A DNA stretch of 52,500 nucleotides from positions 64,913 to 117,412 of the forward strand of contig JACONI010000073.1 in assembly GCA_014323825.1 (NCBI GenBank), in the 5' to 3' direction. The notes under the pieces were generated by a model. That model did not search any database. It had not been told where the DNA came from and saw nothing but the letters and a program-made list of their open reading frames with translations. How positions within the stretch are numbered: position 1 is the stretch's first letter; the number at the start of each line of letters is the position of its first letter. Both the position numbers and the translations under genes were made by a program. Source of the stretch: Ekhidna sp. (GTDB lineage Bacteria; Bacteroidota; Bacteroidia; Cytophagales; Cyclobacteriaceae). Of this stretch, positions 31,499 through 39,346 are shown piece after piece.

Positions 31499-31722
31499 GG
31501 AGGTGTTATAAAAAGTATGAAATCTTAAATATGCCCATAATTGATGTAATAAAAGGCTCATTCAAAGGCTTTGATGTGATTTTCCGCTTTTAACGATATT
31601 TGTACGTTTACACTGAGGGCAGGTTAATGTGATTTGTATTTTCATTAGCTTTAAAAATTAATTTTTATGCTAACCTATTCTTTTGGAATAAGTTATATAT
31701 CATACTTTTTGTAATAGTACCC
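31499..31722 (-). mobile_element. Internally deleted IS1-family remnant, MITE-like (copy C)
   Basis: About 224 bp. Both ends of the element are present (outer TATTACAAAAAGTATGAT at the 31722 side, GGAGGTGTTATAAAAAGTAT at 31499) and match copy A. Between them remain the first codons of the transposase (MKIQITLTCPQCKRTNIVK) fused directly to the last 90 bases of the element; the middle of about 590 bp is gone. The junction lies at a GGAAAA sequence present at both original sites, suggesting a microhomology deletion. It has the structure of a miniature element that could be moved by an active relative. Confidence 0.7.
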
Positions 31723-31824
31723 TGGATTCTACGCAATAATAAAGTATCGAACCGATAAACCGGACAGTGCGATGCCTTATTCTAAAAAAATTCAGGTTTT
31801 ATAATACAAATCAAAAAACTTATA

Positions 31825-31832
31825 TACCTTTG
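31825..31832 (+). promoter_or_regulatory. Predicted -7 element of the phase-variable adhesin
   Basis: TACCTTTG matches TAnnTTTG exactly and lies 28 bases before the first ATG (31860), leaving a short leader. The poly-C tract lies downstream, inside the coding region, so it would act on translation and not on this promoter. Confidence 0.55.
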
Positions 31833-31859: not shown

Positions 31860-34051
31860 ATGAGAACGTTTATAAGTAAAAGATCAAAAGACATCATGAA
31901 CACAGAGAACACGTCACACACGCTGCCGAAAGGGCTGTGCGGGCTTAATTTAATGCCCCCCCCCCCTATAGTCTAATCTTATCTATAAAAAATACCTTTT
32001 TCTTAATCTTCACTATCCTGCTCGCTCTCTTCGGACGGGCACAGGACGATTCCAAACCCTTCATCACTACCTGGCAGACAACCTCTGACAACGAAACCAT
32101 TACTATCCCTACAACAGGAGGAGGCTACAGCTACTCCGTAAACTGGGGCGAAGACGAACCTGCCGATAACAAAACCTACACCGGGGATGCCTCCCATCAA
32201 TACGCTACGGCAGGAACCCACACCGTGACCATCAGCGGTACGTTTCCACGTATCTACTTTTCCGGAAACAGCACCTCCGCAGGGCAGATACGATCCATCC
32301 AAAAGTGGGGGGATAACCCATGGACTTCCATGAACAGTGCTTTTGAAGGCTGCAGCAACCTCACCATTGCCGATGACGCGGGGATTCCGGACCTTTCAAA
32401 TGTGACGAGTATGTTCCGCATGTTCATTAATTCTTCCTTCAGCGGAGACCTTAGCAAATGGGACGTAAGTAAGGTGACAAACATGGGACTCATCTTCAGC
32501 GGTTCTGACTTTAACGGAGACCTCAGCGAATGGGACGTAAGCAAGGTGATGAATATGTCAGGTATGTTTGCATCATCTCCCTTCAACCAAGACCTCAGCA
32601 AATGGGACATCAGCAGTGTGAATAATATGTTCGGCATGTTTAATGATAATACCTCCATGTCTTCCGAAAACTACGATAAACTCCTCATCGGATGGAGCAC
32701 ATTAAACGAAGAGGCGGGCGAGACTAAAATCCCCTCCTCCCACATCACTCTCAACGCACCGGATCATTACACCTGCAAAGGGGAGGCCGCTAGGAACAAA
32801 CTCATCAATACGCATTCCTGGACCATTGAAGGAGACAGCAAACTAGATGATGCCATCGATCCCACACCTGATGTAGTGACCCTGAAAGCACTTACTGCCT
32901 GTGCACAAATCACTGAAAATGAACTCAAGGCTGCCGCGCCCTCCGCCACAGACAACTGCCCGGGAGCAAGCGTTACGGTCATCCATGATGTCACCAACTT
33001 TCCCATTACTTCTAATATTACCATCACGTGGACCTTCACCGATGAGGCAGGCAATACCGCTGCACAAACGCAGACCGTGACCATAGGGGATACCGAGGCC
33101 CCGGAAGTTACAGGGACTTTACCGGAGGTTACCGCACAATGTCCGATCGGTGCTGAAAATGAACTGACCGAACCTGCTGCACCCGCAGACAACTGTGGAG
33201 GGACGGTCACCGTGGCACTCAAAACCGGCACTCCCTTTCCTATTCAGGCAGGCACCACTACTATCACGTGGATATACACCGACGAGTCCGGAAATACGTC
33301 CGAGCAAACGCAGGACGTGACCATAGACGATACCATGCCCCCGGCAGTTACAGGCAATCTGAATGCCATTACCGCACAGTGTCCGATCAATGCTGAAACT
33401 GACCTGACCAAACCTGCTGCTCCCACAGACAACTGTGGAGGGACAGTCAAAGTGGCCGTCAAAGACGATACCAACTTCCCCATTCAGGCAGGCACCACTA
33501 CCATCACGTGGATATATACCGACGAGAACGGCAATACGTCCGAGCAAACGCAGACCGTGACCATCGCCGACACCGAAGCACCGACAATTGCAGACCTGAA
33601 CGCAATTACCGCAGAGTGTTCACTTGAGGAAAATGACTTCACCATCCCCAAAGCCAATGACGTTTGCGACGGGGAGATCACTGCCACACACAATGTCACC
33701 AACTTCCCCATTACGTCCAACACCACCATCACATGGACCTACACCGATAAGGCAGGCAACATCGCCACACAAACACAGGCAGTGACGATTACCGAATGTC
33801 CGCCGGAAGAGAGCAAGCCGCTGAGCACAGGGGACGATGCGTTGGAAGCAGTGGTCTTTCCCAACCCCTCTTCGGGTCGTTACGTAGAAGTGCAGTCTTC
33901 CGTGGAAAGTCCGATCCGCATCCTGAGCGTAGGAGGGGAGTTATTATTGGAAAGCACCACAAACACAAAGATAGATGCAGCCTCCCTTCAAAGCGGCCTG
34001 TACCTTGTCCAACTGCCGGACGGGCGTTTGCTGAAGTTTGTGAAGCAATAA
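31860..34051 (+). CDS. Large T9SS surface protein (DUF285/HYR-like), out of frame at a poly-C tract
   Basis: From ATG 31860 a frame runs MRTFISKRSKDIMNTENTSH through a second ATG (31953) into eleven C (31956-31966), then stops at 31974. The signal peptide (IKNTFFLIFTILLALFGRAQ, from 31985) and the rest of the protein are in another frame with no ATG, GTG or TTG upstream after a stop at 31946. Removing two C or adding one joins them. After the signal come a PKD-like segment, DUF285/BspA-type repeats (GDLSKWDVSKVTNM, NQDLSKWDISSVNNM), about four HYR/Ig-like modules (ITWTFTDEAGNTAAQTQTV), and a T9SS type A tail (VVFPNPSSGRYVEV ... LLKFVKQ). It is probably a surface adhesin of about 730 residues. 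GC-rich relative to the flanks, and bracketed by IS1-family remnants. Confidence 0.85.
31956..31966 (+). repeat. Poly-C tract (C11), candidate phase-variation switch
   Basis: Eleven consecutive C directly after an ATG (31953-31955) and before the signal peptide. With 11 C the protein ends after MPPPPIV; with 12 or 9 it reads MPPPPYSLIL or MPPPYSLIL into the signal peptide. Slipped-strand mispairing at such tracts is the classic mechanism of on/off surface protein switching; sequencing error is the alternative. Confidence 0.8.
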
Positions 34052-34935: not shown

Positions 34936-36117
34936 TCAGTTTAATCTATCGGAAATTTTGCTGAGGATATCCTCTTTCAGCACTTTTGTTCGAAACCACC
35001 ATTCAAATGCCGGATTAATGATTCTATACTCGGTTTGAGATAGCTGTTCCAGCAAGTCTTCCTTGATAAGTGCTTTCCTGGCTTTAAGGGCCGTGGCGGA
35101 TGATTTCAAATGGTATTTTCTGATGGATTCCTGACGGGTAAGTTGTTTTTCTCCTGAAAGGATAGCTTTGAGGACATTAATCTGAATATTACTGAGCCGA
35201 TCAAAAATATCTGTGGAATGCGTATTAGTGAAGTTGAGGAAATCTAAAAAGCCTTTTTGCATTTGTTGTTTCCCGACTTCCTTGTTTCCGGGGCTATTCG
35301 TCCAAATAATATGTGAGAGAAATTGAACATGCTCAGTGTGCCGTTGAGTCCACTCACAGATGATCTTAGCATATTTCTCTGAAATTGGCTTACCTGTTGA
35401 ACTAAATTTAGAAGTGATGAATGGAATCCAGTCTTTTTCTGATATTCTGTTAAGTTTCAGGATTTGTCCGAAATTATAAAATGGGGCAGATTCATTTGAA
35501 AATAACTCTTCCATCATGTGTCGCCTACTGCCGTAAAGACAAAAAGAAGACTTTTTCTGATGCTGCCAATAGGATCGAAGTTCGTATTGTAATGACTCTG
35601 AATTTTCAAACCGACTGATACTTTGAAATTCATCTATAGCGATCAATTGTTGCTTTCCGTTTTGTTCTGATAAGATTTCTGGTAGTCTTAAAATTTCTTC
35701 TTTCGTTTTTTTTGCTTCATTCCAATTGAATGAAAGACTGATTTGCTCTAAACCACCTGCTTTATAAGAAAGCATTGGAACCAAGTGCTTCAGTGTTTGG
35801 CTCAGATTGGTTATAAAATTTTTATATCCGGACCGATTAGCCTGAGTGAGTTTGAGGGCAAATTCTTCCAGAAATTGCTTTTCAGATCGAAAAGAAGTGA
35901 TGTCCATTTGAACAATTGCCAGCTTTTTCTTTTTCTCAAGCTCTGTAAATACCTGCTTGATGAGTGAAGATTTCCCTATACGTCTGGGCGAAATCAAAAT
36001 CACACTGTTTCCACCCATCAAATTATCCTTGAGCAACTTTTTCTCCTTTGTTCGATTGGTAAACTCATCACGACGAACTACTTGTCCGTAAGAAAATGGA
36101 GTGAAGACATCATTCAT
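34936..36117 (-). CDS. AAA-type ATPase (archaeal ATPase_2-like)
   Basis: 393 residues. Walker A is SPRRIGKSS at residues 43-51 and Walker B is LIAIDEFQSISRF near residue 160, giving the ORC/STAND-like AAA core of the PF01637 type. The C-terminal third is a winged-helix-like region (ILSGEKQLTRQESIRKYHLK). Such proteins are common in Bacteroidota and archaea; their cellular role is not established. It is transcribed away from metG. The 122 bases between the two genes contain 15-bp tandem repeats with an inner palindrome, which may be its operator. It is a single-gene unit. Confidence 0.8.
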   Translation of the reverse strand: MNDVFTPFSYGQVVRRDEFTNRTKEKKLLKDNLMGGNSVILISPRRIGKSSLIKQVFTELEKKKKLAIVQMDITSFRSEKQFLEEFALKLTQANRSGYKNFITNLSQTLKHLVPMLSYKAGGLEQISLSFNWNEAKKTKEEILRLPEILSEQNGKQQLIAIDEFQSISRFENSESLQYELRSYWQHQKKSSFCLYGSRRHMMEELFSNESAPFYNFGQILKLNRISEKDWIPFITSKFSSTGKPISEKYAKIICEWTQRHTEHVQFLSHIIWTNSPGNKEVGKQQMQKGFLDFLNFTNTHSTDIFDRLSNIQINVLKAILSGEKQLTRQESIRKYHLKSSATALKARKALIKEDLLEQLSQTEYRIINPAFEWWFRTKVLKEDILSKISDRLN

Positions 36118-36238: not shown

Positions 36239-38296
36239 TTGACAGTGAAACAATTCAAACGACATATCATCACATCAGCCCTTCCTTATGCGAATGGTCC
36301 TATCCATATTGGCCATCTTGCCGGAGTATACATTCCGGCAGACATCTATGTCAGATACCTAAGAAGTAAAGGAGAAGATGTGGTCTGGGTTTGTGGGTCT
36401 GATGAGCATGGGGTAGCCATTGAACTAAAAGCCAGGAAGGAGGGGAAACCCCCTCAGGAAATAGTCGATTTCTATCACAACCAAATCAAAGAATCATTTT
36501 TAGAATTTGGAATTAGTTTTGATATTTATCATAGGACTTCTTCTAAGCTCCACCACAAAACGGCTGCTGACTTCTTCAAACAGATGGAAGCTGAGGGTAA
36601 GTTTAAAATTGAAACTTCTAAGCAGTTTTATGATGAGAAAGAAAGTCAATTCCTAGCCGACAGATATATCAAAGGAACATGTCCGGTGTGTGGTTTTCAG
36701 GAAGCATACGGGGATCAATGTGAAAACTGTGGATCTACTTTGAGTCCCACAGAGCTAAAATTTCCAAGATCAATGCTTAGCGGAGAAGCCCCAGTGATAA
36801 GGGAAACAAAACATTGGTACTTGCCGCTTGATGAATATGAGCCGTGGTTAAAAGATTGGTTGCTGGAAGGACATAAGGAATGGAAGCCCAATGTCTATGG
36901 TCAATGCAAAAGCTGGATTGATAATGGGCTAAGACCAAGACCAATGACTCGAGATTTAAACTGGGGGATTCCCGTTTCGGTAGAGGGAGGAGAAGGTAAG
37001 GTTCTTTATGTGTGGTTTGATGCACCTATAGGATACATCTCTGCAACGAAACAATGGGCTATTGATAACGGTAAGAACTGGGAAGTCTACTGGAAAGGGG
37101 ATGATACACGACTTCTCCACTTCATTGGGAAAGACAATATTGTTTTTCACTGCATTGTTTTTCCTACGATTTTAAAAGCAGCAGGAGGTTATGTCTTGCC
37201 TGATAACGTGCCTGCAAATGAGTTTCTAAATCTTGAAGGCAGCAAAATTTCAACCTCCAGAAACTGGGCAGTATGGTTACATGAATATTTAGAAGACCTT
37301 CCAGGAAAGCAGGATACATTAAGGTATACATTAACCGCCAATGCACCGGAGATCAAGGATAATGACTTTACCTGGAAAGATTTTCAGACAAGAAACAATA
37401 GTGAGTTAGTTGCTATTTTTGGAAATTTTGTTAATCGTGCAGTAGTACTTATTCATAAGTATTTTGATGGTAAACTTCCTGAAAGAGGGGAATTACAACC
37501 GATTGACAATGAAATAATAAAGTCTATTAAAGAAGCACCTCAGCGAATAGCTGATTCACTGGATCAGTTTAAGTTCAGGGAGGCACTATTCCAACTAATG
37601 GAACTGGCAAGAGCGGGTAATAAGTACCTGGCAGATACTGAGCCATGGAAGCTTATTAAAGAAGATAAAGGTAGAGTTGAAACGATCCTGAATATTGCTG
37701 TTCAAATCAGCGTCAACCTATCCATACTCTGTGAACCGTTCCTTCCTTTTACTGCGGAGAAACTCATCTCAATTTTAGCGATTGAAAAAAGTAAGTGGAG
37801 TGCAGCCGGATCTATTGACCTGACTGAATCAGGCCATCAACTAAATAAGGCAGCGTTGCTTTTTGAAAAGATTGAGGACAAGGAAGTAGAGGCACAAGTC
37901 AATAAGCTATTGAAAACAAAAAAAATGAACGAACAAGAGAAGCTAACTCCGAATTTACCTGCACTGAAAGATGAAGTAGTATTTGATGACTTCATAAAGA
38001 TGGACTTAAGAGTAGGGGAGATCAAAACAGCACAGAGGTTAGAGAAATCTAATAAGCTCTTAAAGTTTTCTGTAGATATGGGCTTGGAAACACGTACCAT
38101 TTTGAGTGGTGTGGCAAAGCATTTTACTCCGGAAGAGATGATCGGAAAGAGAGTAACGGTAGTGGCCAACCTCGCCCCGCGAAAGATCATGGGGATTGAG
38201 TCACAGGGGATGCTGCTGTTTGCTGAAAATAGTGATGGAAAGCTTGTGATGGTCAGCCCGGAGGAAGATGCGGAGAACGGGGCTTCTATAAGTTAA
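36239..38296 (+). CDS. metG: Methionyl-tRNA synthetase with C-terminal tRNA-binding domain
   Basis: 685 residues from TTG 36239; GTG 36245 is the other possibility, since a stop lies immediately upstream in frame and no ATG precedes the catalytic fold. The HIGH motif is HIGH in [14 protein letters not shown], the zinc knuckle is [19 protein letters not shown] near residue 150, and KMSKS is represented by KISTS near 337. A C-terminal EMAP-like domain ([20 protein letters not shown], residues about 580-685) binds tRNA. It charges tRNA-Met in the cytoplasm. Length matches two-domain MetRS. Confidence 0.96.
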
Positions 38297-38359: not shown

Positions 38360-39346
38360 TTATTCATCCTCCTCTAATGTGAGATAAACCATGGTTTGGT
38401 TTAACATTAAATAGGCTACTTCCCCAAATGTGATCAATCCTGTGACATCGCCAGTCTTTTTTCCTTCAAGATTTCCAAAGAAATAATTATAAAGACAATT
38501 ACAATTGAAATGGATTTGCTCTTCTATTGCCTTGTATTCCTTTTCAAACTTCTCTTCATAATCAGAAAGTGGCTTTGAGATTTGATATTTATAGCCCGGC
38601 CATACCGGAGTCGCAAAGGTTACCGTTTTAGCTTCATCATTATAAGCTAATATGCTTGTATTGATTAATGAACCATTTACATTGGTTATTATCGGACGAT
38701 CTGTGTCCATTCCTCTGCTTTTGAAATAGTCATAAACGTTCTGCTTTTCACCATCTATAACAGCCTCCTTAACCTCTGTTACTTCTTCTTCAAACTCCAA
38801 ATATGAACCTTCGGGTTCTTGAATATTGATTATTCCAAGTACTGGTGTGATGTTTGAGGGGAGGTCACAGTGCATAACCAATGCTTGATTATCATAAAAC
38901 CTCCCGGTGTTCCCATCTATTACTTTAGGTGTTTTCTCTCCAACCTTTTCCCATAAGACACCTGAAGCCCATCCAATAATAGGAGATTTAAAAACATCAT
39001 TACTTTCTTTGACTGCAAATGGATAGCGATAGGCACACGAAGAGAGGCCCGGTAGAATGATAAATGATACACCCCATTCCGGATAGTCGTCAAAAATGGT
39101 AGAAAGGACATCCTCTTCATAAGTTTTGATTTTGTTAATCTTAATTGGAGCATTCAATAAGTTAAGGAAAACCTTTTCCTTGGAAATAGTTCCGCCCTCT
39201 TCGTCCATAAAATAAGGTATGGTGCCTCCAATCCAGTTTCCCGGAGGTAACTGGGAAAGGAGGTCTTCTTCAGCACCAACAACGGCAGTTTGTCCCTTAC
39301 CTAAGATTTCTTTGGCTTCTTCTAAAGTATATAGTTTATTTTTCAT
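38360..39346 (-). CDS. Conserved protein of unknown function (DUF6976-like)
   Basis: 328 residues, no signal peptide and no membrane helix. It opens MKNKLYTLEEAKEILGKGQT and contains LPPGNWIGGTIPYFMDEEGG, an early Gly-Pro-rich motif, then FIILPGLSSCAYRYPFAV, and ends with CNCLYNYFFGNLEGKKTGD and GLITFGEVAYLML. The latter resembles the close of FIST-type sensor domains, but I cannot establish that. It may belong to the DUF6976 family; this is from memory of the N-terminal pattern and is tentative. A 72-codon gene lies 11 bases upstream in the same direction. Confidence 0.75.
   Translation of the reverse strand: MKNKLYTLEEAKEILGKGQTAVVGAEEDLLSQLPPGNWIGGTIPYFMDEEGGTISKEKVFLNLLNAPIKINKIKTYEEDVLSTIFDDYPEWGVSFIILPGLSSCAYRYPFAVKESNDVFKSPIIGWASGVLWEKVGEKTPKVIDGNTGRFYDNQALVMHCDLPSNITPVLGIINIQEPEGSYLEFEEEVTEVKEAVIDGEKQNVYDYFKSRGMDTDRPIITNVNGSLINTSILAYNDEAKTVTFATPVWPGYKYQISKPLSDYEEKFEKEYKAIEEQIHFNCNCLYNYFFGNLEGKKTGDVTGLITFGEVAYLMLNQTMVYLTLEEDE

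Follow-up and report, generated by a model that had tools for sequence, protein, structure and literature searches.

What allows a surface protein to be made when its start codon and its signal peptide lie in different reading frames? The question is raised by positions 31860 to 34051 of a 52,500-nt stretch of Ekhidna sp. DNA (contig JACONI010000073.1), hereafter the window, in which a run of eleven Cs separates the two. The original prediction was that this run makes the gene a candidate for phase variation by slipped-strand mispairing. The features concerned are the following.

31825..31832, plus strand: TACCTTTG, a candidate promoter element (direct reading) resembling the Bacteroidota -7 element TAnnTTTG
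31860..31955, plus strand: 96-nt leader frame (MRTFISKRSKDIMNTENTSHTLPKGLCGLNLM), the proposed protein start in the ON frame
31860..31976, plus strand: OFF-state frame of 38 residues (...MPPPPIV), with stop TAA 31974
31946..31948, plus strand: upstream TAA stop in the signal-peptide frame (direct reading)
31956..31966, plus strand: C11 homopolymer, the proposed length switch (direct reading)
31967..32044, plus strand: predicted signal-peptide coding part, YSLILSIKNTFFLIFTILLALFGRAQ (by eye; similar segments occur in other copies)
31967..34051, plus strand: post-tract open frame of the surface protein, 694 codons and stop
32324..32668, plus strand: DUF285 region, residues 120-234 of the post-tract frame (PF03382, 95.2 bits, cut-off 25)
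33368..33565, plus strand: best of four HYR_4C stretches, residues 468-533 (PF23237, 95.3 bits, cut-off 27)
33854..34045, plus strand: T9SS type A C-terminal sorting domain, residues 630-693 (TIGR04183, 26.9 bits, cut-off 23; PF18962, 29.5 bits, cut-off 27)

Direct reading bears out the predicted geometry. ATG 31860 and ATG 31953 share a frame that runs through the C11 tract to TAA 31974. The signal peptide lies in another frame, which has a stop at 31946, begins anew at 31967 directly after the tract and ends at the stop at 34049; it holds no usable start, the first one listed (GTG 32225) being already past the signal peptide. Nine or twelve Cs join leader and signal peptide, as claimed, and lengths divisible by three bring one frame. 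With eleven Cs, the leader frame does not lead into the signal peptide, and this is the OFF state of the locus as assembled. The prediction had spoken of a sequenced clone in the off state; the frame is indeed OFF, and what was sequenced is a metagenome-assembled population consensus rather than a clone. The 38-residue product, which had been called an off peptide presumably without function, is the conserved leader with which the ON protein would start. Other leaders of this type are preceded by variants of the 31825..31832 region.

Within the window alone, the C11 run is compatible with chance: there are 4 overlapping C8 matches versus 1.46 expected, and 13 of 100 shuffles reach 4. The significance of the run comes from counts over the whole genome, a metagenome-assembled consensus of 3,008,284 bases in 122 contigs. 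It matches the metagenome-assembled genome (MAG) GM202BCY1, an Ekhidna sp. from Guam samples of the sponge Lamellodysidea herbacea, assembled from Illumina reads; in the parts of that report consulted, two further MAGs of the same species, SP12BCY1 and SP5BCY1, are described (AAI above 98%), as are type IX secretion, genes for gliding and numerous novel cadherin proteins, and the term 'phase variation' is absent (PMC7313196).

A 281-nt query around the window leader gave 44 BLAST matches in its own genome. The genome holds 531 C9 and 415 C10 matches, corresponding to ∼116 runs of at least nine Cs, and 102 runs of at least ten Cs preceded by another base. We extracted 108 distinct runs of at least nine Cs with their surroundings; a few runs lie outside this set, for example on contigs C5, C15 and C105. 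Nearly all of those extracted (98/108) show a leader of known type on one side or a signal peptide of known type on the other, or sit beyond a scaffold gap in such a locus. Leader and signal peptide are both visible, and directly joined by the tract, in 62 cases, with eight leader types in all. Sorting was by flanking DNA; two loci missed by the pattern (C51:19795 and C73:63639, as contig:position) were added to leader type A by eye. The runs are distributed as follows.

Leader A (the window's type): 42 tracts
Leader B (MMFYFII-): 24 tracts
Leader C (MSLLKLFIKQVTDKFM-): 6 tracts
Leader D (MNNLIGGIVRLFINL-): 6 tracts, and 1 with the D-type downstream side only
Leader E (MKTLIKIIQPKKIQFN-): 5 tracts
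Leader F: 2 tracts
Leaders H and I: 1 tract each
Far side of a scaffold gap in such loci: 10 tracts, one of them SusC-type
SusC-like genes, poly-G in the sense strand: 6 tracts
Elsewhere: 4 tracts

The idea of a phase-variation candidate holds up, not as a single locus but as a genome-wide repertoire. By eye, leaders A, E, F and H lead to T9SS-type or similar signal peptides, and leaders B, C and D to lipoprotein signal peptides that close with a lipobox cysteine; a single leader A copy is joined to a lipoprotein type. The SusC-like genes, likewise named by eye, read ...GNYRLTLAD-run-ILVFSYVGFETQEVEVG... and include in-frame and out-of-frame copies, with the poly-G run in the N-terminal domain at C113:6453, C92:10354, C10:30379 and C14:13731 (L175, L162, L134, L138).

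Several smaller observations belong here. A family A leader with a C10 run and a paralogous frame lies at C73:63458-63742 (L043), 1.2 kb before the window start. At C104:634 (L169), a C11 run sits within a frame that by eye resembles a SAM-dependent methyltransferase, with LDIGCGSGLFSLAA before the run. Loci with lipoprotein leaders B, C and D carry another homopolymer, a G-run after the lipobox cysteine (e.g. C24:922, L141), whose length is G4 in 14, G7 in 6, G5 in 2 and G9 in 1 of 23 distinct copies; the G9 copy soon loses frame, and the other copies shown keep the expected one. It is possible that this G-run is a second switch.

The leader is 96 nt long in nearly all copies scored. Of 22 distinct leaders, 21 lack any stop in frame 0, whereas none is stop-free in frame 1 or 2, and pN/pS is 0.47 in frame 0, compared to 0.65 and 1.45 in the other two. 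By these measures, the leader is read as protein. The ATG adjoining the tract is variable, being ATA or lacking its G in some copies; since it seems dispensable, the upstream ATG is the likelier start. Starts also occur downstream of the run. Some family E copies have an ATG between the tract and the signal-peptide core (...RRSMKKAFLII...), at which database proteins are predicted to start, and such genes might be made at any tract length, bypassing the tract. Families B and C and some A copies contain ATG, GTG or TTG within the signal-peptide core, where initiation would leave a signal-peptide stub.

We then consider the state of each tract. The frame could be scored at 56 of the 108 loci, those that are gap-free and include a leader start; one further D locus, without ATG, was left out. 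Two loci were assigned to OFF by hand: C99:150922, where automatic scoring took the wrong ATG, and C57:7255, where the first leader frame is broken. Tract lengths range from 10 to 20 and spread over all three frames. Nine loci are ON and 47 OFF, or 8 and 45 when identical copies are dropped (n = 53). The ON fraction is thus below the one-third expected at random (8/53, two-sided P = 0.005), although the loci are related and the P value is only indicative. An excess of OFF can mean selection for OFF, decay or silent copies; it fits a repertoire that displays few proteins at once, as well as silent donors or decay.

Length differences also occur in otherwise identical DNA. The tract is C11 at C66:5201 and C13 at both C90:8640 and C94:23392, with flanks that agree at every base, both in the 174 nt before the tract and in the 262 nt after it that can be compared. 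These are paralogous copies other than the window locus, and they lie near contig ends, so that they may be alternative assembly paths of fewer loci. ON copies are present in families A, B and E. A natural ON copy with a long run, C51:19795 (C11 and an extra T), has a complete 662-residue frame from the leader to the T9SS tail. At C108:7029, where the C-run is interrupted (longest stretch C5), leader, MPPTPLP and signal peptide form one continuous frame, which suggests what an ON product would look like. That locus is one of 15 relatives of the signal-peptide/N-terminal region that have no listed tract. Two of these have a tract behind a scaffold gap, ten have none, and the remaining three have short or interrupted runs (C108:7029 with C5, C97:8650 with C7 and C105:7343 with C9). 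Because the family has plain members, the switch is an addition it can do without.

Slipped-strand phase variation of a surface repertoire is, in our assessment, the best explanation of these data and very probably the correct one. The C11 run lies between the leader start and the signal peptide, its length sets the frame, and paralogues with otherwise identical DNA differ in length (C11 versus C13), as expected of a contingency locus. Translation would begin at the leader ATG. At ON lengths, a few prolines would link the leader to the signal peptide, so that the protein would be exported and shown at the surface by way of the type IX system; at any other length, translation would run into a stop shortly past the tract and yield only a short peptide. 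Gain or loss of Cs during DNA replication, presumably frequent and reversible, would switch the gene on and off. With many independent switches, each cell would carry a different, mostly silent surface repertoire.

The strongest competing explanation starts from the mosaic structure of these loci. C111:1764 and C99:132387 are identical over the first 180 nt after the tract, whereas their promoter regions are 71% identical and their leaders differ. Likewise, C62:759 and C97:759 differ at 2 positions in the 758 nt that follow the tract, and their promoter regions are only 68% identical. Leader A occurs with downstream types a1, a2 and c2, and leader B with b and c2; a1 is also found after leader H. 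One promoter type, CTTGA(C/T)AATTA, precedes 21 of 24 B, 5 of 6 C and 5 of 6 D leaders and the single H leader, as well as 2 of 42 A leaders.

We correlated pairwise segment similarities in 25 A copies free of gaps. Within each side of the tract, segments correlate (r = 0.44-0.78; 0.54 for the two leader halves, L1-L2). Across the tract, the first leader half shows no correlation with the signal peptide (r = 0.12, P = 0.15), the second half correlates clearly (0.37-0.52; L2-S 0.37, L2-D1 0.52), and other pairs do so weakly (0.21-0.31). Similarity thus breaks within the leader as well as at the tract, and exchange is not confined to the latter. The tract as the sole point of recombination is not supported. 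Comparison of the copies shows that loci have swapped promoters, leaders and coding parts, with breaks both at the tract and inside the leader.

Such mosaics, the variety of downstream types met by each leader and the predominance of OFF loci are all expected if most copies are permanently off and serve as gene-conversion donors for a few expressed loci, the run acting mainly to start recombination. A G-rich element starts recombination at pilE in Neisseria and offers a model. However, a promoter-like region and a leader of its own accompany every copy, similarity breaks at more places than the tract, and ON copies exist in three families. We therefore consider a silent store of this kind unlikely.

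Inversion was also considered as a source of variation upstream. A perfect 11-nt inverted pair, 31630-31640 and 31803-31813, lies upstream of the window leader with its arms 162 nt apart. It is one of two 11-nt inverted pairs there, the other being imperfect, and both arms of the perfect pair are found at only 1 of 40 family A loci with 350 nt of upstream sequence. An invertible promoter was thus set aside as the mechanism of the family.

Could the tracts be constant and in frame, and simply miscounted? The genome comes from an Illumina metagenome assembled with IDBA-UD or Celera (PMC7313196). Its assembly does suffer at these sites: 43 of 108 tracts lie within 1 kb of a contig end (versus 6.7% expected), and 25 of 108 have a scaffold gap within 60 nt. 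However, Illumina reads count a run of eleven Cs fairly well, and miscounts should centre on the in-frame length. This is not what is seen. In family A with signal-peptide type a1, where 12 is in frame given the usual flanks, lengths 10, 11, 12 and 13 occur 3, 8, 3 and 7 times; in family B, where 13 is in frame, lengths 11, 12, 13, 14 and 21 occur 6, 5, 2, 1 and 1 times. (Differences in leader length have been corrected for; a base beside the tract puts one C12 copy in the OFF and one C11 copy in the ON frame.) Furthermore, the presence of the tracts and their repetition do not depend on exact counts. We regard assembly or sequencing error as a very unlikely account.

Just as improbable, in our view, is programmed slippage, in which polymerase or ribosome would slip on the C-run and yield a fixed fraction of product at any length, with no switching. 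Long homopolymers can cause transcript slippage, in which case the excess of OFF loci would be of minor importance. The known cases lean towards A/T runs, however, and slippage leaves unexplained both the differing lengths in otherwise identical copies and the excess of out-of-frame lengths. Least probable of all is decay, with the tract genes as pseudogenes left by genome reduction: 45 of 53 distinct loci are out of frame and the MAGs are ∼3 Mb compared to 4.2 Mb for Ekhidna lutea (PMC7313196 for the sizes), but the frames after the tracts are still long and open (up to 1032 codons), with the leader frame preserved.

Most genes subject to the proposed phase variation encode predicted surface proteins. 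The window protein has a hydrophobic stretch after the C11 run, identified by eye, which the leader start reaches only at ON lengths. Its C-terminal sorting domain, detected by both TIGR04183 and PF18962, marks it as candidate T9SS type A cargo, and its PF03382 match above cut-off places it in the DUF285 family; its score with the PARCEL repeat model TIGR02167 (27.5) is under the cut-off of 30, a cut-off exceeded by 5 of the 9 other tract proteins scanned. Among the ten proteins scanned, all taken directly after tracts, five combine DUF285, HYR and a T9SS tail (one tail being below the cut-off of both models), four have cadherin repeats (one of them with a T9SS tail above the Pfam cut-off), and one has BACON; the lipoproteins among them carry cadherin repeats or BACON. 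The original description of a switchable T9SS adhesin finds strong indirect support as regards a switchable T9SS surface protein, from the 42 loci with the window's leader type and those with other leaders, from tract lengths in all three frames, from identical copies with C11 or C13 and from the natural in-frame copy; 'adhesin' derives from the domains only.

To assess how widespread the tracts are, we compared relatives. Among 295 genomes of the family, runs of at least eleven Cs preceded by another base number 97 here and 30 in a congener, G009; one of the other 293 has 12, the rest have at most 4, and 203 of the 295 have none. Eight of nine other genomes of the genus compared gave 0-2 C10 matches. 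G009 has a similar layout with its own leader (25 matches) and one SusC-type poly-G tract (G009:C181, L105). Several of its copies run into odd C-rich sequence at contig ends, likely misassembly, and because the draft is poor at tract sites G009 serves mainly as a count.

The leader itself has a narrow distribution. No long leader match was found in 58 other genomes, 13 of which gave only matches of 20-43 nt (best 41 bits). A 20-base leader pattern had one match in the named genome collection, in Cupriavidus, which we take as chance; the genome analysed here may lie outside that collection. A protein search with the natural ON copy returned 23 matches. Two of them span residues 1-110 completely, and both come from the window's genome; the other 21 cover at most 65% of these residues, and five of them that were inspected have no leader. 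In a search with the window's post-tract frame, no leader-bearing copy was recognised among the 120 matches listed of 2183.

A mutator genome was set aside as the cause. MutS (872-codon frame) and MutL (606) are intact in the window's genome, and so a mutator is not needed. In G009, MutL is present and MutS_I gave no match; this is a draft of ∼460 contigs, and the gene may just be absent from the assembly.

Contingency loci are a known kind of system. As in the poly-G/poly-C loci of Campylobacter, Helicobacter and Neisseria, long G/C homopolymers lie in many surface genes and the frame decides expression; the parts consulted of PMC4965091 and PMC5084427 count 29 C. jejuni NCTC11168 loci with runs of at least seven and 115 N. 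meningitidis genes, respectively. Unlike those loci, the present ones belong to the Bacteroidota, connect 62 tracts directly with predicted signal peptides in a standard cassette, have eight unrelated leader types that end in the tract, and reach ∼116 runs of at least nine in 3.0 Mb. Bacteroides likewise has phase-variable surface proteins, SusC included, but there invertible promoters and invertase-driven SusC/SusD switching are at work, whereas the switch proposed here is tract length. In the sections consulted, a 2025 phase-variation review treats Bacteroides mainly for inversion-based switching, gives temperature-dependent phase shifts a single entry, and contains none of the terms Flavobacter-, Cytophag- and Porphyromonas (PMC11868660).

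The window protein shares a DUF285 region with the PARCEL (BspA-like) surface proteins, which are also known from Flavobacteria according to the part of PMC2996958 consulted; it adds HYR domains, a T9SS tail and the poly-C leader cassette. The same portion of that source describes phase-variable Mycoplasma lipoproteins, multigene families with mutation-based combinatorial switching; unlike these, the present genes belong to another phylum, have their C-run in a translated leader and use gram-negative export routes. A survey of homopolymeric tracts in prokaryotes contains no occurrence of Bacteroid-, Flavobacter- or Cytophaga (PMC2831843). In the literature searched, some of it available in part, we found no case of slipped-strand C/G switching in Bacteroidota, without claiming that none is in print; within those bounds the phylum, the number of loci and the leader-tract-signal peptide cassette with module exchange appear to be new.

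A wider proposal, to which we give slightly less than even credence, is that much of a sponge symbiont's outer coat, comprising T9SS adhesin-like proteins, cadherin-repeat lipoproteins and SusC-like receptors, stands on ∼100 independent poly-C/poly-G frame switches, carried by a swappable promoter-leader-tract cassette whose default is OFF. The outcome would be a combinatorial, self-shuffling surface, a slipped-strand repertoire that arose within one Bacteroidota genus. If true, slipped C-run phase variation, best known from host-adapted pathogens of other phyla, would operate at very large scale in a marine animal symbiont and would provide a testable system for surface diversification against phages, sponge cells or changing particles. 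It would also account for the breaks of the assembly in these genes, and for the failure of gene callers to register the switch when they place the start beyond the tract.

Two further genes of the window may be recorded. Downstream of it, an AAA ATPase of the ATPase_2/AAA_14 kind is encoded on the minus strand (34936-36117). Further on, also on the minus strand, a DUF6976 family protein (38360-39346, 353.8 bits) adjoins methionyl-tRNA synthetase (36239-38296).
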